NCBI RefSeq assembly: GCF_016801775.1
Contig: NZ_CP069004.1
Location: forward strand, 3,410,001-3,474,000
Source of the DNA: Sulfitobacter mediterraneus
GTDB taxonomy: Bacteria; Pseudomonadota; Alphaproteobacteria; Rhodobacterales; Rhodobacteraceae
Direction: 5' to 3'
DNA: 64,000 nt
Shown here: piece by piece, positions 273 through 52,576 of the stretch
Layout of the letters: the number at the start of each line of letters is the position of its first letter
Position numbering within the stretch: the stretch's first letter is position 1
The notes under the pieces: model-generated
Databases searched by the model: none
The model's input: the letters and a program-made list of their open reading frames with translations, nothing else
Told to the model about the DNA's origin: nothing
Position numbers and translations under genes: made by a program

Positions 273-1874
273 ATGACACTTAAGAACGGAATGACCCGCC
301 GCCGGTTCACCAAGGGCCTGCTTTACGGAACTTCGGCTGCGTTAGCATCGCCGTTGATCATGCCGCGCCGGGGCATCGCTCAAGAGGCTTTGGCAAACGG
401 CAAGATCGGTGGGCCAACAGGCTTCGAGGGCGCCGAAGCCTATCAGTACGGGGCAGACACACCTGAAGGCCGCGCAATGGAGGCGTTGCGCGCAATGGCC
501 GGCACCAACTCAGCACCGACCCGCATTCGTCTGGCGCTGTCAGAAGGATCCATTGGCCAATTGACCCAGGCTTTCCCCGAGGGCGCACCATCCATCAAAG
601 AACTGTTCGAAGCTGAAAGCGGTATCACGCTGGACATTATCGGGGTTCCGTCCGGGCAGGAATTTACCAAGGCGGTGCAAGATATCTCAACCAACGCTGG
701 TGAATACGACATCTACACCACTGACTTTAACCGTCTCGGCGACATCGTCGAAACCGGCGGCGTCGCAAATCTTGACGAGTTTGTCGAAAAGCATCAGCCG
801 GAATGGGCTGCTGAAAACGGCTATGTCGGCGGTGAGCAAGGCGTTAGCTTGCTCAACAAATATAGGGGCAGTTACTATGGTATCTCGCTCGATGGTGACT
901 TCCTCACATGGATCTATCGCAAAGATCTGTTTGAGGATGACGCGATGCGTCAGGCCCACAAGGCCGCGACAGGCCGCGAGCTGACCTTGCCTTCCACCTA
1001 TGCCGAACTTGATGAAACGGCGCTGTTCTTCACCAAACACACAAATGGTGAGATTCACGGCTGCACCGATCTGCGCAATCAGGGTTGGGGCTATATCAAC
1101 TGGTACGGCCGCTACACCACGATGGGCAATCCAAACCAGTTCCTGTTTGCCGACGATGGCAGCATGCTGATCAACTCCGAAGCTGGCGCACGGGCCACGC
1201 AAGAATATGTCGATAGCCTTGCCCACCATGCCCCGGATGCGATCTCTTGGAGCTGGCCAGAGCAATACGGGTCTATGGCGAACGGCACCTCTGCAATGAC
1301 GTGCGCATGGTCGAATATGCCCAAGTTCCTCGACAATCCGGCAAATGAAGGGTCCAAGGTTGTCGGGAAGCTGGGATCTTGGACGCCGCCAGGCCGCGAA
1401 GTCGATGGCGACCTGATCAGCCGCTCCCTTTTGTGGTTCTCGCTGGCCGCATCCGTATCCAATCAAGCGGACAATCCCGAAGCCTGCTATCTGTTCCTGC
1501 AGTGGCTGGGCGGGCCGCAAATCTCATCTTGGATGGTGGCAAACCCTGCGGGTTACTTCGACCCATGGCAGAACGCGCATCTGGATGATCCGTTGGTGCA
1601 GCGGACCTATCACGACTACCATGTGGACACGATCCGCAAATCGATTCAACGTGCAGTGCCGTCGATTAACTATCCCGGCGCGACAGCCTTCCACAACGCC
1701 CTGGACGAAAACCTCGTTGCGGCCCTCACCGGTGAAAAAACCGCCGAGCAGGCAATGGCGGACACCGAGCGCCAGTGGAAACGCATCACCCGCCGCGTGG
1801 GCGAAGACAAGTTGCTCGAAGCAATCCGCTTTAACAACGAGGCTTGGCCGACGATCACTGATCCGGTTACCTGA
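273..1874 (+). CDS. Tat-exported ABC sugar-type solute-binding protein (family 1)
   Basis: Periplasmic binding protein of a CUT1-like importer, 533 aa. The start at 273 is chosen because GGGAGGA (259-265) precedes it and because it places a twin-arginine signal at the N-terminus: T-R-R-R-F-T-K at residues 8-14, then a hydrophobic stretch and a likely cleavage after GIA36. The longer reading from 159 would bury the signal. Tat export implies the protein folds before export, which is uncommon but known for binding proteins. It is followed by two permease and two ATPase genes in one operon. The ligand cannot be read from sequence; the downstream SDR, epimerase-like and transketolase genes suggest a sugar or polyol. 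A hairpin follows the stop codon. Confidence 0.88.
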   Translation: MTLKNGMTRRRFTKGLLYGTSAALASPLIMPRRGIAQEALANGKIGGPTGFEGAEAYQYGADTPEGRAMEALRAMAGTNSAPTRIRLALSEGSIGQLTQAFPEGAPSIKELFEAESGITLDIIGVPSGQEFTKAVQDISTNAGEYDIYTTDFNRLGDIVETGGVANLDEFVEKHQPEWAAENGYVGGEQGVSLLNKYRGSYYGISLDGDFLTWIYRKDLFEDDAMRQAHKAATGRELTLPSTYAELDETALFFTKHTNGEIHGCTDLRNQGWGYINWYGRYTTMGNPNQFLFADDGSMLINSEAGARATQEYVDSLAHHAPDAISWSWPEQYGSMANGTSAMTCAWSNMPKFLDNPANEGSKVVGKLGSWTPPGREVDGDLISRSLLWFSLAASVSNQADNPEACYLFLQWLGGPQISSWMVANPAGYFDPWQNAHLDDPLVQRTYHDYHVDTIRKSIQRAVPSINYPGATAFHNALDENLVAALTGEKTAEQAMADTERQWKRITRRVGEDKLLEAIRFNNEAWPTITDPVT

Positions 1875-1919: not shown

Positions 1920-1949
1920 GCTTTGATCCTGTCTCAAAGGGCTTTTTGC

Positions 1950-2810
1950 ATGCAGTTGTCACTGTCCTTCCGCGTATTTCGATTTTTTGCCATCGGGCTG
2001 GCATTGGTCTTCACGCTCATTCCGGTTTTGTGGATGATGTCGATGGCGTTCAAACCTATTCCCGAATGGTCTGCCAGTGGCGACAACCTGACATGGTGGC
2101 CCAAAGACCCGACGCTGGACAACTTCCGCTATATCTTCGGCGCAAGCTCAAGCGAGTTGTTGTCGACATTGGAGCGCACCGCGGGGCGCCCCATTTTGGC
2201 CTCCCTGCTGGCGGCGACAATCGGCACCTTGATCGCGATGGTTGTCGGATCGAGCGCGGCCTATGGCGTATCGCGTTACGGGTCAGGTAAGAACCTGCCG
2301 CTGGCATTGATTCAGCTCCGGCTGTTCCCCCCCCTCGCGGTCATGATCCCGGTGATGGTGATGTGGACGTTCTTAGGACTTACCGACACGTGGTACGGGC
2401 TGAGCCTGGTCTACGGCATCGTCACACTGCCCTTCGCCTTCTGGCTCATGAAAACCTATTTTGACGATATGCCGATTGAGATCGAAGAGGCTGCATTGGT
2501 CGAAGGGTGTTCGCGCTTTCGTGTCCTTACCCGCGTGACCCTGCCAATGATGCGCGGCCCGCTGGCCTCATCCGCGTTGCTGGTCTTTATCCTGAACTGG
2601 TCCGACTACCTGATCGCATTGATGCTCACGACGCGCGATTGGGTCACGATCCCCGTGTACATGGCGTCACTTTCATCTTCGATGACCGGACAACTTTACG
2701 GTGCCAAGGCGGCGCTGGGTCTGATTGCAGCTGTGCCGCCTGTGATTATGGGCATCTTGATTCAAAAACACCTCGTGCGTGGCCTGACATTCGGAGCGTT
2801 GAAGCAATGA
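1950..2810 (+). CDS. ABC transporter permease, MalG-like
   Basis: Inner-membrane subunit of the importer, 286 aa with about six hydrophobic segments. The MalG/EAA cytoplasmic loop that contacts the ATPase is visible as [20 protein letters not shown]. The ATG at 1950 is preferred over a TTG at 1923 because AAGG lies about ten bases before it and it gives a normal N-terminus leading into the first membrane helix. The stop overlaps the next start (ATGA). Here the MalG-like gene precedes the MalF-like gene, the reverse of the usual order. Confidence 0.9.
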
Positions 2811-3739
2811 CACATTCCTCGCCCCAAACCTCGAACGCTGCGAAAGACGCACCGAAATCCCGGCTTGGACTTTGGTTGACCCTGCCGGCACAGCTTCTGA
2901 TCCTCTTTGTCGCGGTTTTCCCGCTGCTGATGCAGCTCTACCTCAGCTTCTCCGACTGGACTCCGCTGGCCGGACGATCTTGGACCCGGGCGCATGAATT
3001 GTGGATCGGTTTTTGGAACTACTCGGACCTCTTTGCAGATCCGCGATTTTGGGGTGCCCTGTGGCGCACAATGATCGTGATCGGTATCGCAGTGCCGGTT
3101 GAATTCTTGTTGGGGCTGGGTCTCGCCACCCTGTTCATGCAAGATTTCCGCGGCAAGAAGGTGCTCTATTCCACGCTGCTGGTGCCGATGATGATCGTAC
3201 CTGCGGTTGCCGGATATATGTTCTTTTTGCTGTTCCAATCGGATGGTCCAATCAATGGTTTGCTCTCTGCGCTGACCGGGCTTGATGTGAGTATCCGCTG
3301 GCTGACAGACCCTGACCTTGCGATCTTTGCGGTTATGATTGCAGACATCTGGCAGTGGACGCCGCTGATGTTCTTGATCCTTTTGGCAGGGCTTTTGGGC
3401 GTGCCGCGCGAACAACTGACGGCGGCGACCCTTCTGGGCGCATCCCCGTGGCAGCGGTTCCGCACCATTGTGTTGCCCAAGATCAAAGTCATTATCGTGA
3501 TTGCGCTGGCGATCCGCGTGATCGAGGTTTTCAAGATCTTTGACACGCTGTTCATCATGACAGCTGGCGGTCCGGGCACAGCGACGGAAACGATTTCGGT
3601 GTTCTTTTATAAGATCATGACGCTGGAACTGGCCTGGAGCTATGTTGCGGCTGCAGGTCTGGTGATCCTGATTGCCCTGTCGATCCTCGCTGTTGCTGCG
3701 ATGTATTTCCTTCCCAAATCCAAGGAGGCAGGCAAATGA
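2807..3739 (+). CDS. ABC transporter permease, MalF-like
   Basis: Second membrane subunit, 310 aa. It has a short polar N-terminus, a first membrane helix around residues 23-43 and the EAA-type loop [17 protein letters not shown] near residues 205-222. The start overlaps the preceding stop by four bases, and its own stop overlaps the next ATPase start, so the five transporter genes are translationally coupled. It should pair with the preceding permease to form the channel. Confidence 0.9.
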
Positions 3740-4821
3740 CCAGCATCCACCTTGCTAATATCGTCAAGAAATTCGGAGATTTCACCGCGATCCAAACCAT
3801 GAACTTGGAAGTGCGCGATGGTGAGTTTCTCGCGCTGCTCGGGCCATCGGGTTGCGGTAAATCCACCACGATGAATATCATCGCGGGGATGGAAACCCCG
3901 ACCCACGGTACGGTCAAATTTGGCGAACGGGACATCACCCATGTGCCGATGCAAAAGCGCGGCGTTGGATTTGTATTCCAGAACTACGCGATCTTCACCC
4001 ATATGTCGGTCTATGAAAACCTCGCTTATGGGCTGCGGATGAACGGCACCCCCAAGGCTGAACTGGATCGCAAAGTTCAGGAGATCGCGGAGTTTCTGGA
4101 ATTGACCGCGATCCTGCATAGACCGTCTGCGGGACTGTCAGTGAACATCTTGCAGCGTCTGGCCATCGGTCGTTCCGCTATTCTGGAGCCGTCAATATTC
4201 TTGTTGGATGAACCCTTGTCCAACGTCGACGCCGCGTTCCGCGCGGTGATGCGTCAAGAGCTCAAGCAGCTGCAGCGCAAATTCAAACAGACCATGGTTT
4301 ACGTAACTCATGATCAGCTTGAGGCCATGACAATGGCGGACCGGATTGCGGTTATGGACCACGGCGTCCTGCAACAAGTTGGCACGCCGATTGATGTCTA
4401 CAACAACCCTCGCAATCTGTTTGTCGCGCAGTTTTTGGGCTCGCCGGGGATGAACTTGCTGCCGGGCGCCTTGGCAGATCGGGGCGGTGATATGTTTGTC
4501 GATCTTGAGCTGGGCGGCAGCATCGCGCTCAAAGGTAGTGATGCACAGGCCGGTCGCGCCGCAAAAAGCCGCGATGTGGTCTGCGGCTTCCGCCCCGAGG
4601 CCGTGCAGTTTGATGATGCGGGTGTCTCCCTCTCTGTGACCTTTGTCGAACGGATCGGCGCGCGGACAATTGTCCACATGGGCAAGGGTGCCGCATCGGT
4701 AAAGGCGGTTTTTGATAACAAGGTTGCTGTGAACGTCGGGGATCAAACCCGCATTGCCCCCCAGGACAATGCAATCCGTCTTTTCGCAGCGCAAAGCGGC
4801 GAAAGCCTGCAGGTGGCATAA
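3736..4821 (+). CDS. ABC transporter ATPase A with degenerate signature motif
   Basis: Nucleotide-binding subunit of the MalK/UgpC type, 361 aa with a C-terminal regulatory (TOBE-like) domain. Walker A is intact (GPSGCGKST, residues 36-44), Walker B has the catalytic glutamate (LLDEP, E159), and the H-loop His is present (YVTHDQ). The ABC signature, normally LSGGQ, reads LSVNILQR at residues 134-141: both glycines are lost. Its partner encoded next (4821-5876) has a normal signature but a changed Walker B. Paired ATPases occur in glycerol importers of the GlpST type; no glycerol kinase gene is present here. The gene starts inside the permease stop and ends in a TAATG junction with ATPase B. 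Confidence 0.92.
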   Translation: MTSIHLANIVKKFGDFTAIQTMNLEVRDGEFLALLGPSGCGKSTTMNIIAGMETPTHGTVKFGERDITHVPMQKRGVGFVFQNYAIFTHMSVYENLAYGLRMNGTPKAELDRKVQEIAEFLELTAILHRPSAGLSVNILQRLAIGRSAILEPSIFLLDEPLSNVDAAFRAVMRQELKQLQRKFKQTMVYVTHDQLEAMTMADRIAVMDHGVLQQVGTPIDVYNNPRNLFVAQFLGSPGMNLLPGALADRGGDMFVDLELGGSIALKGSDAQAGRAAKSRDVVCGFRPEAVQFDDAGVSLSVTFVERIGARTIVHMGKGAASVKAVFDNKVAVNVGDQTRIAPQDNAIRLFAAQSGESLQVA

Positions 4822-5876
4822 TGGCTAGTATTTCCTTTCGCAATGTAACCAAACGCTTTGGCGACACCATGGCGTTGAACGATGTGTCCTTTGATATTGA
4901 GGATAACGAATTCTTCTGCTTCTTTGGGCCGCCTCTGTCAGGCAAATCAACCATCCTTCGGATTATTCTGGGCCTGGACACCCCGGACAGTGGTGAGGTG
5001 TTGATCGACGGCAAACCGGTAACCCACATCGGGCCGGCAGAACGAAACATCGCAATGGTGTTCCAGAACCTCGCCTTGTTTCCGCATATGACTGCACGGG
5101 AGAATGTGATCTTCCCGCTGGTCGAACGCAAAACCGCTCCTGCGGAGATCGAGGCCAAGCTGGGCGATGTGGCGGAAAAACTGCATATGTCGCACATCCT
5201 GCACAAACATCCGGCGCAATTGTCGGGGGGCGAACGACAGCGGGTCGCGATTGCCCGTGCGCTGGTTCGCGATCCAGTGGCCTATCTGATGGACGATCCG
5301 ATCTCGGCCTTGGATGCACGTCTGCGTGAAGAGACCCGGATCGAGCTGAAACGCATTCAACGCGAGGTCGGACATACCCTGATCTATGTAACGCACGATC
5401 AGGAAGAGGCGATGTCGATCGCCGACCGTATGGCGATCCTGCGCGATGGGCAGGTGCAACAAATTGGCACTCCGATAGAAATCTACGATGCGCCTGCTAA
5501 TACCTATGTTGCTTCTATGCTCGGCGCGCCTGCGATCAACCTGTTCGATGTGGATGCCATCAGCGGTGTTACCAAAAACGGGGCACTTGATCTCAATGGA
5601 GTAGATCTGGACGGGGTTGAGCGGGTCGGCCTGCGTCCTGAAGACGGGCGGCTGATTGGTGTCGACAGCGGTCTAAGATCAACGGTCTCAATGGTGGAGC
5701 CTTTGGGCGGGGCGACAATCGTGACGCTGGACCCGCCCGAAGGTGGCACACCGATACGGTTGATGCTGCGCGGCCAGCCAACGATTGAGGTCGGCGCAGG
5801 AATAGCCATTGAATACACCCCAAGCGCATTGATGCGCTTTGACGCCAACAATGAGCGCATGGGAGACACAAAATGA
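4821..5876 (+). CDS. ABC transporter ATPase B with Walker B Glu-to-Asp change
   Basis: Second nucleotide-binding subunit, 351 aa, MalK/UgpC type. Walker A is GPPLSGKST (residues 36-44), the signature is canonical LSGGERQR (134-141), and the H-loop is YVTHDQ. The residue after the Walker B aspartate is Asp159 (LMDDP) instead of Glu, the general base for ATP hydrolysis. In a head-to-tail dimer with ATPase A, this Asp159 would face the damaged LSVNILQR signature. The other composite site would have DE plus LSGGE and be fully canonical. The start overlaps the previous stop by one base. Confidence 0.92.
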   Translation: MASISFRNVTKRFGDTMALNDVSFDIEDNEFFCFFGPPLSGKSTILRIILGLDTPDSGEVLIDGKPVTHIGPAERNIAMVFQNLALFPHMTARENVIFPLVERKTAPAEIEAKLGDVAEKLHMSHILHKHPAQLSGGERQRVAIARALVRDPVAYLMDDPISALDARLREETRIELKRIQREVGHTLIYVTHDQEEAMSIADRMAILRDGQVQQIGTPIEIYDAPANTYVASMLGAPAINLFDVDAISGVTKNGALDLNGVDLDGVERVGLRPEDGRLIGVDSGLRSTVSMVEPLGGATIVTLDPPEGGTPIRLMLRGQPTIEVGAGIAIEYTPSALMRFDANNERMGDTK

Positions 5877-6655
5877 AGTTCGAGGGTAAAACTGCCATCA
5901 TCACCGGGGCATCGCGGGGGATCGGGGCCGAGACCGCGCTGCACCTCTCGGATTTGGGGGCAAATGTGATCTTGCTGGCCCGATCCGGAGATGAGATCGG
6001 CGCGCTGGCAGATGACATCAAAGACCACGGCGGCGCTGCAGAGGCATTGACCTGCGACGTGGCCAATCCCACCGACGTGGCCAATGCCATTGCGGCCTGC
6101 AAGGACCGGTTTGGCGGCTTGGACATTCTGGTGAACAATGCCGGGTTGATTGACCCGATTGCCCGCCTCGAAGACAGCGATCCACAGGCATGGGCGCAAG
6201 TCATGAATGTGAACGTGCTGGGCGTTTACCACATGCTGCGCGAAGGCCTGCCCCTGATGGGGCAAAGCGGTGGCGGGACAGTGATCAACATCAGCTCCAT
6301 CGCGGCGGTCAAAGCATTGGAAGGTTGGTCGCATTACTGCGCTTCCAAAGCCGCGGTGCTGTCGCTGACCCGCAGTGTGATGGCCGAATGGGGCGATAGG
6401 GGCGTGACAGCTGTAGGACTCAGCCCCGGCACAGTCGCGACAGGCATGCAAAAATCCATCGCGCAATCGGGCCTCAATCCCGTCAGCCAAACCCCGTGGG
6501 AGGCACATATCCCGCCGCAATGGGTTGCCAAGGCGATCGCTTGGCTCGCGCAAGGCGGTGCGGTGGATTACGCGGGCCGCGATTTTTCAATCAAACACAA
6601 ATACGGACGACGGGCGGTGGGTCTGCCCGAAGACGGCGCATTGGACGGCGAATAG
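5873..6655 (+). CDS. SDR family oxidoreductase
   Basis: NAD(P)-dependent short-chain dehydrogenase, 260 aa. The cofactor motif TGASRGIG is at residues 11-18, NNAG at 88-91, the catalytic serine near 141 and YCASK at 155-159. The start overlaps the ATPase stop (ATGA), so it is in the transporter operon. It probably oxidises or reduces a hydroxyl of the imported substrate. Two further SDRs in the same operon suggest successive redox steps or an epimerisation through a keto intermediate. The specific substrate is unknown. Confidence 0.9.
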   Translation: MKFEGKTAIITGASRGIGAETALHLSDLGANVILLARSGDEIGALADDIKDHGGAAEALTCDVANPTDVANAIAACKDRFGGLDILVNNAGLIDPIARLEDSDPQAWAQVMNVNVLGVYHMLREGLPLMGQSGGGTVINISSIAAVKALEGWSHYCASKAAVLSLTRSVMAEWGDRGVTAVGLSPGTVATGMQKSIAQSGLNPVSQTPWEAHIPPQWVAKAIAWLAQGGAVDYAGRDFSIKHKYGRRAVGLPEDGALDGE

Positions 6656-6667
6656 GAGACATCACTC

Positions 6668-7204
6668 ATGAGCAACGACAAAGACGGAAAAGACCGCGGG
6701 TTTTACGATGGTAACGGGTTTGACAATTTGACCGGGCCGGGCGCACAGCAGGCCTATGATTTCTGGGACCGCCTGGAAGAGATGCGCAAGGATGAGCCGC
6801 TGAAAGGCAATCTGTACGATCCGCGGGTCTCTGCGGATTTCCCGCAAAACCCCTGCAATCTGCCGATCAACTTGATGTTGTGGCCAGAACGGATGATGGA
6901 CTTTGTCATGCTGCGCGGCGAGCCGGGCGGGGAATTTCCGCCACATACCCACGGCTATGGTGATGAGATTTATCTCATCATTAACGGCGAAGGTATCGTG
7001 ATTATTGACGGTGTCGAATACGAGGCCAAAAAGCACGATATTTTCTGGATCCCCGCAGGCACACCGCACACTTATCGCACACCAGCAGACAAAACTGAAA
7101 GTTTCGACATCTTTGCGGTCAATGTTCCGGGCGTCAAACACACGATGCGGTCCACCTATTGGGCAGGCCCGCCCAAAGGCAAAAAGGCGGGCGACAATGC
7201 TTGA
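6668..7204 (+). CDS. Cupin domain protein
   Basis: Single-cupin protein of 178 aa. The metal-binding cupin motif is visible: H93, H95 and E100 in PPHTHGYGDE, and H134 in the second motif (IPAGTPH). The first ~65 residues precede the barrel and are polar. Small cupins in sugar operons are often isomerases, epimerases or dioxygenases, but motifs alone do not separate these. The ATG follows an AGGAGA site at about 6655-6660, and the 3' end overlaps the next start by eight bases. Confidence 0.8.
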   Translation: MSNDKDGKDRGFYDGNGFDNLTGPGAQQAYDFWDRLEEMRKDEPLKGNLYDPRVSADFPQNPCNLPINLMLWPERMMDFVMLRGEPGGEFPPHTHGYGDEIYLIINGEGIVIIDGVEYEAKKHDIFWIPAGTPHTYRTPADKTESFDIFAVNVPGVKHTMRSTYWAGPPKGKKAGDNA

Positions 7205-8159
7205 TCCAGAAGACAAGAACCTGGGCAAGGCCGTGGTCGAGGCCCCCTTTGCCGCCGCATTGGAAGATCTGGCGCAAACCAGCGATGATCTGGTTGTGGT
7301 GACAGCGGATTTGTCCAAATGGACCGACGTTCTGCCTTTTGCCAAGGCGCACCCCGATCGGTTTGTACAGGTCGGCATGGCCGAGCAAAACCTCATGGGT
7401 GTGACCGCTGGTTTGGCCAAATCCGGTCTTTTGCCTGTCGCGGTGACCTTTGGCGTTTTTGCAACACGTCGCGCCTATGACCAGATCGCGATGAGCCTTG
7501 CGACCCAACCGTGCCACGCGATCATCGCTGGATTTTTGCCCGGTTTGGACAGCCGTTTCCGCGGTACGCATCAGGCTATCGACGATCTGGCGTTGATCCG
7601 CTCCTTGCCGGGTTTGACAGTGATTGACCCTGCCGATGCCACCGAGTTACGGGCCGCAGTTGTTGCCGCCGCTGAACACGAGGGCGTGATTTATATCCGT
7701 TGCAGCCGTGGCCGCGCCGAACAGCTATTCGACACTGGCACCGGATTTGAAATCGGGCCAGCACGGGAATTGCGCGAGGGCAGCGGCGATCTGGCGGTTG
7801 TGACCACTGGCGCCGCGACCCGCTGGGCCGTGGAAGCGATTGAAACGCTGGCCGATCAGGGCGGGGTGTCGCATTTGCATGTGCCGACGCTGAAACCCTT
7901 TCCCGATGCGCAAGTGGCTGCGTTTTGCGCCCGTAATGCACGGGTGATCACGGTGGAAAATCATCTGGTACATGGTGGCCTTGGTGCCAGCGTCAGTGCA
8001 GCCCTGGCGACACGCGGTATTGGTGTGCCCGTCCAGATCAAAGGGATCAACGACCGTTGGGGCGAATACGGGACACCCGAATTTTCTCGTAGCAAGCTTG
8101 GCCTTGGCTGCACAGACCTAGCTGCCGCGTTTGCGCAAAAACAACTGGAGGCATCATGA
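7197..8159 (+). CDS. Split transketolase, C-terminal (pyrimidine-binding and C) half
   Basis: 320 aa corresponding to the Pyr and C-terminal domains of transketolase. The glutamate that activates thiamine diphosphate is E63 in VGMAEQN, followed by the typical TFGVFATRRAYDQI strand. The start at 7197 sits within the end of the cupin gene; the longer reading from 7005 runs through the cupin gene in another frame and is not credible. The partner half is the next gene, overlapping by four bases. The order C-half then N-half is opposite to intact transketolase and to most split pairs. The two chains should form a heterotetramer transferring a two-carbon ketol unit. Confidence 0.9.
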   Translation: MLDPEDKNLGKAVVEAPFAAALEDLAQTSDDLVVVTADLSKWTDVLPFAKAHPDRFVQVGMAEQNLMGVTAGLAKSGLLPVAVTFGVFATRRAYDQIAMSLATQPCHAIIAGFLPGLDSRFRGTHQAIDDLALIRSLPGLTVIDPADATELRAAVVAAAEHEGVIYIRCSRGRAEQLFDTGTGFEIGPARELREGSGDLAVVTTGAATRWAVEAIETLADQGGVSHLHVPTLKPFPDAQVAAFCARNARVITVENHLVHGGLGASVSAALATRGIGVPVQIKGINDRWGEYGTPEFSRSKLGLGCTDLAAAFAQKQLEAS

Positions 8160-8980
8160 AACCCAATGCGCCCTCAACCGCAGAGCTTGCGCTGACTGCC
8201 GCGCGGATCCGCCGGATGGTGATCGAAATGTGCCGTCAACCCAAACAGGGCTATGCCGGACAAGGGCTTGAGCTGGCCGATATCATGACGGTGGTGTTTC
8301 ACGACATCAAGCGCCCACAAGATCGTTTTCTGTTGTCGACAGGCCATGCCGCCATCGCGCTTTATGCCGCGCTTTGGTCCGTTGGTGAATATGAACAAGA
8401 AGAGCTGATGACCTACGGCTTTGACGGGACCGAAATTGAAGAAAGCCCATTGGATGATCTCAAGGGGTTTGAGATGACGGGCGGGTCATTGGGGCAGGGG
8501 CCAAGTCAGGCCGCTGGTTTGGCGCTGGGTCTTCGGATGCAAGGCAGCAACGCGCGGGTCATTTGCGAAGTCTCTGATGGTGAGCTGCAAGAAGGCGCCG
8601 CTTGGGAAGGCTTTATGTTTGCGGCAGCCCGCGGCCTGTCTAATTTGGTTTTTGTGATCAATGACAATGGCGAACAGGCCGATGGCGCCACTGCTGAGGT
8701 CTTGGACATCGGTCCGCTTGCGCCCAAATTTGAGGCGTTTGGCATCAAAGCAATCGACGTGGACGGCCATGATCTCACCGCGCTCCGCACCGCCTTTCGC
8801 GACGCAGAAACCGCCGTTGGACCGGTTGCGTTGATCTGCAAAACGATACCCGGCAAAGGTATCAAAACCTTCGATCAATTTGCCCGCGTTCACTATGTGC
8901 GCACCACCGAAGAGATCTGGCAGGCCGCTGCCGATGAGTTGGATGCGCAGATCACTGAACTAGAGGGGGTGCCGGCATGA
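8156..8980 (+). CDS. Split transketolase, N-terminal (PP-binding) half
   Basis: 274 aa corresponding to the thiamine-diphosphate-binding domain. Visible are STGHAAIALYA (H64), GGSLGQGPSQAAG (109-121) and the ThDP/Mg motif SDGELQEG (140-147) with NDNG at 169-172. The first residue of the usual GDG motif is Ser here, while the metal-binding Asp and Asn are kept, so activity is still expected. It overlaps the previous and following genes by four bases each. The donor and acceptor sugars are unknown. Confidence 0.9.
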   Translation: MKPNAPSTAELALTAARIRRMVIEMCRQPKQGYAGQGLELADIMTVVFHDIKRPQDRFLLSTGHAAIALYAALWSVGEYEQEELMTYGFDGTEIEESPLDDLKGFEMTGGSLGQGPSQAAGLALGLRMQGSNARVICEVSDGELQEGAAWEGFMFAAARGLSNLVFVINDNGEQADGATAEVLDIGPLAPKFEAFGIKAIDVDGHDLTALRTAFRDAETAVGPVALICKTIPGKGIKTFDQFARVHYVRTTEEIWQAAADELDAQITELEGVPA

Positions 8981-51520: not shown

Positions 51521-52576
51521 ATGGCCCGACTTCAACTCAAGAATATCAACAAGCGATGGGGCGCCTTTGTCGGCGTGAAAGACCTCAACCTCGATATTGC
51601 GGATGAAGAATTTCTGGTACTGCTGGGCCCATCCGGCTGCGGTAAATCCACCACCATGCGGATGATTGCGGGCCTTGAAGGGGTCAGCGAGGGCGAGATC
51701 CTATTGGGCGATAAGGTGGTGAACCATCTGCCCCCGAAAGACCGCGATATCTCCATGGTGTTCCAATCCTATGGTCTTTATCCAAACCTGTCAGTCTATG
51801 AGAATATCCGCTTTCCGTTGCGGGTGCGCCGCGTGCCCAAGGAACAACACGACGAGATGGTGATGCGGGCCGTGCGGATGGTCGAACTGGAAGACTTCAT
51901 GCACCGCCGCCCTGCCGAATTGTCGGGCGGACAAAGGCAGCGTGTGGCACTGGGCCGTGCCATCGTGCGCAAGCCCACAGTCTTTTTGATGGATGAACCC
52001 CTGTCCAATCTGGACGCCAAGCTGCGGGTCTCCACCCGTGCGCAGATCAAGAACCTGCAAAGCAAGCTGAAGGTGACAACGGTCTATGTGACCCACGATC
52101 AGATCGAAGCGATGACATTGGCCGACCGCGTTGTGGTGATGAATGCAGGCGAGATCCAGCAGGTCGGCACGCCCACGGAAATCTACAACACACCCGCCAA
52201 TACCTTTGTGGCCAGCTTCATTGGTTCACCCGCAATGAACCTGATCGACGGGCACATCGAGGGCGGCACCTTTACCGCTGAGGGGATGAAGATCCTGGGG
52301 CTGAACACCAAACACAATGGCCCCGTAACCTTGGGCTTTCGCGCTGAGGATGCCGATGTCTGCGACACTGGCGGCCAGATCACCGGCCCGGTCTATTCGG
52401 TGGAACTCTTGGGCGATGCGACCATGATCACATGGCGTCAGGGCGGCGCGTTGGTATCAATCAAAACCAACAAGGATTACCGCGCCGAAATCGACCAGAT
52501 CGTTGAAGGATCAATCCCAGCCGAGATTTGCCATCTGTTCGACCCGCAAACAGGTGCGCGCATTGCGCTGGACTAA
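51521..52576 (+). CDS. ABC transporter ATPase (UgpC/MalK-like)
   Basis: 351 aa with Walker A GPSGCGKST (about 38-46), signature LSGGQRQRV, Walker B FLMDEPLSNLD, H-loop YVTHDQ and a C-terminal TOBE/MalK regulatory domain. All catalytic residues are canonical, so a homodimer is expected. This contrasts with the asymmetric pair at 3736-5876. Confidence 0.95.
   Translation: MARLQLKNINKRWGAFVGVKDLNLDIADEEFLVLLGPSGCGKSTTMRMIAGLEGVSEGEILLGDKVVNHLPPKDRDISMVFQSYGLYPNLSVYENIRFPLRVRRVPKEQHDEMVMRAVRMVELEDFMHRRPAELSGGQRQRVALGRAIVRKPTVFLMDEPLSNLDAKLRVSTRAQIKNLQSKLKVTTVYVTHDQIEAMTLADRVVVMNAGEIQQVGTPTEIYNTPANTFVASFIGSPAMNLIDGHIEGGTFTAEGMKILGLNTKHNGPVTLGFRAEDADVCDTGGQITGPVYSVELLGDATMITWRQGGALVSIKTNKDYRAEIDQIVEGSIPAEICHLFDPQTGARIALD

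Follow-up and report, generated by a model that had tools for sequence, protein, structure and literature searches.

The DNA analysed here is a 64,000-nucleotide stretch of the Sulfitobacter mediterraneus genome (contig NZ_CP069004.1, positions 3,410,001 to 3,474,000), hereafter the window, which carries on its forward strand an operon for a predicted ATP-binding cassette (ABC) importer of sugar type made of one binding protein, two permeases and two unlike ATPases, named A and B. The solute-binding protein (273..1874; SBP_bac_1, Pfam PF01547, E 2.2e-19) lies inside a mechanical open reading frame (ORF) spanning 159-1874; its probable start is the ATG at 273, which would open a Tat-like MTRRRFTKG signal (273-300), as against the mechanical TTG at 159. 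Next come a MalG/GlcU-like permease 1 (1923..2810; Pfam BPD_transp_1, E 7.7e-15) and a MalF/UgpA/GlcT-like permease 2 (2807..3739; BPD_transp_1, E 1.4e-14), whose best NCBIfam matches, GlcU and GlcT respectively, are below cut-off. They are followed by two MalK/UgpC-type genes, ATPase A (3736..4821, 361 aa), with a defective signature, and ATPase B (4821..5876, 351 aa), with a defective Walker B motif; the stop of A and the ATG of B share one base (TAATG). Judged by these motifs, the importer probably runs on one working ATP site, like some drug exporters.

Family searches, comparison with solved structures and single-chain models all identified A and B, which share 37% identity, as full-length MalK-type ATPases. 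Each contains an ABC_tran domain and a C-terminal regulatory (OB/TOBE) domain, OB_MalK in A and TOBE_2 in B, and neither carries a fused transmembrane domain. Their top NCBIfam matches are UgpC/MalK models, yet below the cut-offs of these models. The predicted structures are confident (mean predicted local distance difference test score 93.8 for A and 91.6 for B) with 2it1_A as the best PDB match of both; models and fold matches bear only on the MalK-type identity of the two proteins. The importer shows the features that define the MalK-type (CUT1) group, namely an ATPase with a regulatory domain, an SBP_bac_1 binding protein and two BPD_transp_1 permeases, but departs from the usual CUT1 trait of two identical ATPases with two consensus sites.

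Residues are numbered as in MalK (S135, G137, E159 and H192). A has a canonical Walker A motif (GPSGCGKS, residues 36-43, 3841..3864), a Walker B motif LLDEP with the catalytic E159 (4201..4215) and an H-loop VTHDQ with H192 (190-194, 4303..4317); its signature, LSVNILQR (134-141, 4135..4158), is degenerate, V136 and N137 replacing the two glycines. B has a canonical signature LSGGERQR (134-141, 5220..5243), an H-loop VTHDQ with H192 (190-194, 5388..5402) and a Walker A motif GPPLSGKS that retains Lys and Ser (36-43, 4926..4949); its Walker B motif reads LMDDP (5286..5300), D159 replacing the catalytic Glu. All these diagnostic motifs, the LLDEP and LSVNILQR of A and the LSGGERQR and LMDDP of B, were found exactly where the original prediction, made from the letters of this DNA, had placed them. 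Dimers of the MalK type sandwich each ATP between the Walker motifs of a subunit and the signature of its partner. If this geometry is assumed, A and B in a head-to-tail heterodimer have their defects at one and the same composite site, as had been predicted. Site 1, formed by the Walker motifs and H-loop of A and the LSGGE signature of B, would be a complete consensus ATPase site, while site 2, formed by the Walker motifs of B and the LSVN signature of A, would retain the Lys, Ser and Asp that hold MgATP. The same composite geometry is described for another ABC heterodimer (PMC10246721).

The motifs, their conservation, the pairing of the genes and their distribution can be read directly from the sequences of relatives. 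Protein searches returned 7292 matches for A and 3531 for B, and motifs were counted on alignments of the best 120 of each, the window's own proteins included. Among the best 120 of 7292 A matches, 118 read LSVNILQR/LLDEP/SNVDA/THDQ, one differs in the D-loop alone (SNIDA) and the last, a run-on protein, reads LSVNDLQK, so that both signature glycines are replaced in all of them. Among the best 120 of 3531 B matches, LSGGERQR and THDQ are found in 120/120, with LMDDP in 119 and LMDNP in one. A scan of species genomes yielded 80 loci, chiefly from Mesorhizobium, Rhizobium, Shinella and Rhodobacterales, to which other searches added further loci. When pairs were sorted on alignment score alone, ignoring the motif, A was of the LSVN type in 72/72 and B carried D159 in 61 and E159 in 11. 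The final set comprised 88 A/B pairs, or 77 once redundancy over the core was removed; its filter admitted only pairs with VN in A and SGG in B, so these four residues are constant in the 77 pairs by construction, and the counts free of this filter are those of the 72 score-sorted pairs (for A) and of the best-120 lists (for A and B). An LSVN A stands with a D159 B in 60 of the 77 pairs and with an E159 B in 17. The site 1 residues A E159, A H192 and B S135 are invariant across the 77 pairs, and site 2 retains B K42 (76/76 aligned), B D158 (77/77) and A S135 (77/77).

The two genes also travel together. The gap between A and B is at most 40 nt in 72/77 pairs, and the distances of A and B correlate (r 0.96 over 77 pairs), which partly reflects mere shared species history. 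In the DNA examined, a single A lacked a B, that of L072 at the end of a contig, and B-type proteins without an A were not found, five apparent cases being GlpS adjoining GlpT. A search with B over 385 genomes, 12 of which had a match, returned eight B-type proteins, each adjoining an LSVN A, the other five being canonical single ATPases. The 21 best matches to A in the S. mediterraneus genome (E to 1.6e-38) form three adjacent pairs, all asymmetric, plus 15 unpaired matches, of which the eight read are canonical. Overall, signature, Walker B and H-loop are canonical in 31/31 unpaired CUT1-type ATPases read (8 from the S. mediterraneus genome, 1 in L028, 17 in L082-L097 and 5 in L145-L149). 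The window itself holds another CUT1-type ATPase at about 51524-52465 (G000:C1:3461524), which is unpaired and canonical (LSGGQRQR, LMDEP, THDQ). A natural A-B fusion was considered as proof of pairing and rejected: protein P0009 (617 aa) runs an LSVN A into B, and its arginine-rich join looks like a frameshift in the A tail. Similarly, a 634-aa ORF containing B (L077:1190-3094) appears to be a frameshift or run-on artefact. A match to A at E 1e-110 or better was present in 6/398 genomes of the phylum, S. mediterraneus included; this patchy distribution makes spread of the family by lateral transfer likely. Proteins with LSVN that share 45-48% identity with A occur in Alphaproteobacteria, Chloroflexota and Actinomycetota.

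The original prediction went further, holding that the two defects are exactly complementary and that loci with one defect alone would speak against it. The combination is indeed fixed across a large family, but it is neither exact nor obligatory: the A-type defect occurs alone in the 17/77 pairs that join an LSVN A to an E159 B, while the converse was not seen. Strict co-occurrence of both defects thus fails as a rule. One of these 17 pairs is the second pair of the S. mediterraneus genome (L011; A' LSVNELQK, B' LMDEP and THDC), in which the B glutamate is intact; among the rest are pairs from marine Alphaproteobacteria, from one genome of Chloroflexota (Ardenticatenia) and from two of Thermoleophilia, and one of the 17 has a B that has lost the H-loop histidine (VTSDQ, L079). 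A profile search with E159-type B proteins listed 120 matches, one of them the run-on P0009; E159 is present in the other 119/119, and VTSDQ in 13. Among the matches listed, in an alphaproteobacterial sample, an intact A signature was never seen adjoining a B-type protein that had lost a catalytic residue. A sub-branch of four loci (L130, L131, L132 and L136) combines a B with MSGGERQR, LLDEP and an H-loop VSHDE with an A reading LSVNEMQK or LSVNELQK, which on sequence is another set of small changes around the B H-loop. Two positions of A vary with residue 159 of B (5295-5297): A138 (4147-4149) is Ile with D159 in 60/60 pairs and Glu or Asp with E159 in 17/17, and A164 is Val with D159 in 60/60 and, with E159, Leu in 16 and Val in 1. 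Because this covariation tracks one event in the tree, it is only suggestive of a contact across site 2.

We also aligned A and B with the paired ATPases of GlpS/GlpT glycerol importers, as the original prediction had proposed, and found a parallel asymmetry. The pair of this type in the S. mediterraneus genome (L012) has a GlpT signature LSPDNKQK and a GlpS H-loop ATSEP. GlpT was present at E 1e-110 or better in 31 of 289 genomes of the class, and 30 loci were read; the GlpT signature (L[STG][PA]D) and the GlpS H-loop histidine (A-T-[ST]-E-P) are jointly lost in 30/30 pairs, while DEP and THDQ of GlpT and LSGGQ and DEP of GlpS are intact in 30/30. The same motif pattern is seen in a named locus of Rhizobium beringeri that carries glpD, glpK and DUF2160, which supports the GlpS/GlpT name. 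The GlpSTPQV system resembles the A/B importer in having two ATPase genes per importer, and in that an altered signature and the loss of a catalytic residue coincide on one composite site. It differs in the form of the signature and in its second loss, the H-loop histidine instead of the Walker B glutamate, and its proteins are just 30-39% identical to A and B. It also has its own gene set with glpD, glpK and DUF2160, none of which Pfam searches found among the window neighbours of the importer. GlpS and GlpT fall into two groups of their own, apart from A and B (support 100), to which they are not orthologous. The GlpS/GlpT literature that we found (PMC11223650) concerns gene naming only.

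The order of the changes was examined on two quick maximum-likelihood trees of 119 and 95 proteins, the second built without the motif columns. The D159 B proteins form one group (support 99 and 100), as do their A partners (99 and 100), and both groups are nested among the pairs keeping E159. Parsimony needs at least two changes of the signature, one of E159 and two of H192. On these sequences, the signature was likely lost first and the B catalytic residue then changed (E159D once; H192S in the Chloroflexota branch). Approximately unbiased (AU) tests did not reject single groups of A+GlpT (p 0.413), B+GlpS (p 0.605) or A+B (p 0.384), the constrained B+GlpS tree being even slightly better, so the deep order in the trees is only tentative. 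By parsimony, with its two signature changes, A and GlpT would have lost the signature separately, but such a separate origin is no more than possible, since the AU test allows one group. Both genes are under purifying selection: the median ratio of nonsynonymous to synonymous substitution (dN/dS, Nei-Gojobori) is 0.21 for A (1619 pairs, 62 sequences) and 0.22 for B (1667 pairs, 62 sequences), figures that indicate the mode of selection and no precise value, because many of the pairs, chosen with a synonymous difference of 0.05-0.70, are near saturation.

From these observations we infer that A dimerises with B, that site 2 holds ATP, that a cycle takes one hydrolysis, and in what order the changes arose. 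We consider it likely, on the motifs and their distribution, that A and B form a head-to-tail heterodimer within one CUT1 importer, with a consensus site 1, a site 2 that holds ATP and hydrolyses it slowly or not at all, and a two-step origin. Site 1 would drive the cycle. Site 2, devoid of both signature glycines and with Asp in place of the catalytic Glu, should bind ATP but hydrolyse it slowly or never, and would be a clamp that need not be reset each cycle. In the first step, a duplicated ATPase would have lost its LSGGQ signature; in the second, with site 2 already impaired, the catalytic residue of B would have been free to change, by E159D in this branch and elsewhere by H192S (in the Chloroflexota branch) or, in GlpS, by losing the H-loop histidine. 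Published work is in line with this reading. In human degenerate sites the signature is always altered, E to D ranks second in frequency among the changes and H-loop changes often occur alongside, and such sites are argued to act as a lasting ATP scaffold (PMC7756269); the MalK H192R variant keeps <2% of its ATPase activity (PMC6222333); and recent work on exporters is summarised as showing that a single ATP hydrolysed suffices for reset (PMC7756565). By this analogy, the importer is best read as an exporter-type one-site solution reached in a type I importer. Several points weigh against this picture. An Asp at the position of the catalytic Glu can still support slow hydrolysis (PMC7756269). 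B E159 and H192 are both intact in 16/77 pairs, in which only one side of site 2 is impaired. The tree has E159D as a single event, so that its link to an LSVNILQR A rests on one origin, and the AU tests leave the A+GlpT and B+GlpS groupings standing, so that GlpS/GlpT may not be independent of A/B.

Other explanations have to be weighed. The asymmetry could be the product of a neutral ratchet only, the catalytic residue of B having drifted after the signature was lost, with no use of its own. The order of loss fits such drift, the first defect occurring with B E159 kept in 17/77 pairs and the second alone in 0, and so does the fact that the second change differs between lineages. However, LSVN is frozen across the three groups named above, at 45-48% identity to A, and position 159 of B is D in 119 and N in one of the best 120 of 3531 matches, where drift would yield more kinds of residues; we regard this explanation as unlikely. 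A mild asymmetry in which both sites hydrolyse, with LSVN still functional as a variant signature and Asp159 slow but sufficient as a base, agrees with the retention of the signature serine S135 of A (77/77), with the 16 pairs that keep both B residues and with exporter E to D sites reported to be still slowly hydrolysing (PMC7756269). Against it, both signature glycines are replaced in every A homologue among the best 120 of 7292, the catalytic losses occur only on the side facing the altered signature, in three lineages and at two different residues, and such a change was seen in 0/31 of the single ATPases read, which makes this account quite unlikely.

A and B might also not be partners, each working as a homodimer or serving other transporters, with an incidental complementarity. 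Shared MalK-like ATPases do exist, and the genome has 15 more unpaired matches of the same type; an MsmX structure among the PDB matches of A is uninformative on ATPase sharing. An A-A dimer, though, would carry two altered signatures and a B-B dimer two altered Walker B motifs, the genes abut, their distances correlate, and neither a lone B-type protein nor, save for the one at a contig end, a lone A was seen in the DNA examined, which together leave the idea very improbable. As for pseudogene decay or sequencing error, nothing was found in its favour: the same motifs recur in independent genomes, both ORFs are full-length with confident predicted folds, and dN/dS is about 0.2 in both genes, so that there is practically no chance of it. 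Together with the consensus-site residues, unvaried in the 77 pairs, these values bear out the claim of the original prediction that the pattern reflects selection rather than decay.

Compared with the MalK/UgpC homodimer of E. coli MalFGK2, the A/B importer shares the fold, length, regulatory domain and types of permease and binding protein, but has two unlike ATPases, with one composite site altered on both halves, instead of an ATPase homodimer. With the heterodimeric exporters TAP, TM287/288, BmrCD and the ABCC family, it shares an altered signature and an E to D change on one composite site (PMC7756269); these exporters have fused transmembrane domains whereas the importer has separate BPD-type permeases and a binding protein, and the likeness is one of mechanism only. 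One degenerate site is also reported for RbsA and NupO (Bacillus subtilis), sugar or nucleoside importers (PMC11466899). These fused CUT2-type ATPases are one polypeptide whose second Walker A lacks the lysine, whereas A and B are two genes that both retain it. The asymmetry, presented in the original prediction as not the norm for MalK-type sugar importers, is indeed unusual relative to homodimeric MalK-type (CUT1) importers but not foreign to sugar importers in general, given the RbsA/NupO precedent. IrtAB, a heterodimeric importer with an exporter fold, was considered and rejected as a precedent, because both of its subunits have the catalytic glutamate (PMC10246721). The principle of one degenerate site is already known from exporters and fused CUT2 ATPases; among the papers listed by searches of the open-access literature, none describes such a site for GlpS/GlpT or for CUT1 importers with twin ATPases.

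Regarding the substrate, the window neighbours of the importer are sugar-type enzymes. The next gene, a short-chain dehydrogenase (5873..6655, identified by ORF and Pfam), starts within the end of B, which places the importer in a catabolic operon, and is followed by a cupin, a transketolase split over two genes, two more dehydrogenases, a DUF4432 protein and an M24 peptidase. In the split transketolase (7005-8980), the gene for the C-terminal half precedes that for the N-terminal half, and its presence in the operon points to a sugar or polyol route. Named relatives, by contrast, have Gfo/Idh, sugar isomerase/epimerase, aldose epimerase and SDR genes downstream of the pair. Downstream of the second S. 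mediterraneus pair (L011:6239-8108) lie a 3-hydroxyacyl-CoA-dehydrogenase-like gene and then a beta-keto acid cleavage enzyme, a pairing that brings carnitine breakdown to mind; the pair adjoins a sugar-type binding protein, and the substrate of that importer may not be a sugar.

The chances are about even that the twin-ATPase CUT1 importers, that is the A/B family and GlpS/GlpT, are a widespread class convergent with exporters, in which one site has become a lasting ATP clamp and the signature was always lost first, followed by either of the interchangeable catalytic residues E159 and H192 on the facing subunit. If this is true, these importers, unlike MalFGK2, would need to hydrolyse just one ATP in each transport cycle, and would bear on the long-standing question of whether an ABC importer cycle takes one ATP or two. 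According to the title of a 1997 paper by Davidson and Sharma, MalFGK2 transport is crippled when just one MalK subunit is defective. Asymmetric MalK homodimers can be obtained by engineering only, while here a natural graded series exists within one fold: consensus at both sites, a signature defect only with E159 kept, the signature defect with E159D, and the signature defect with H192S or its GlpS counterpart. Comparing the members of this series would test how important each residue is at each site, and whether the rules drawn from the degenerate sites of exporters hold in importers.

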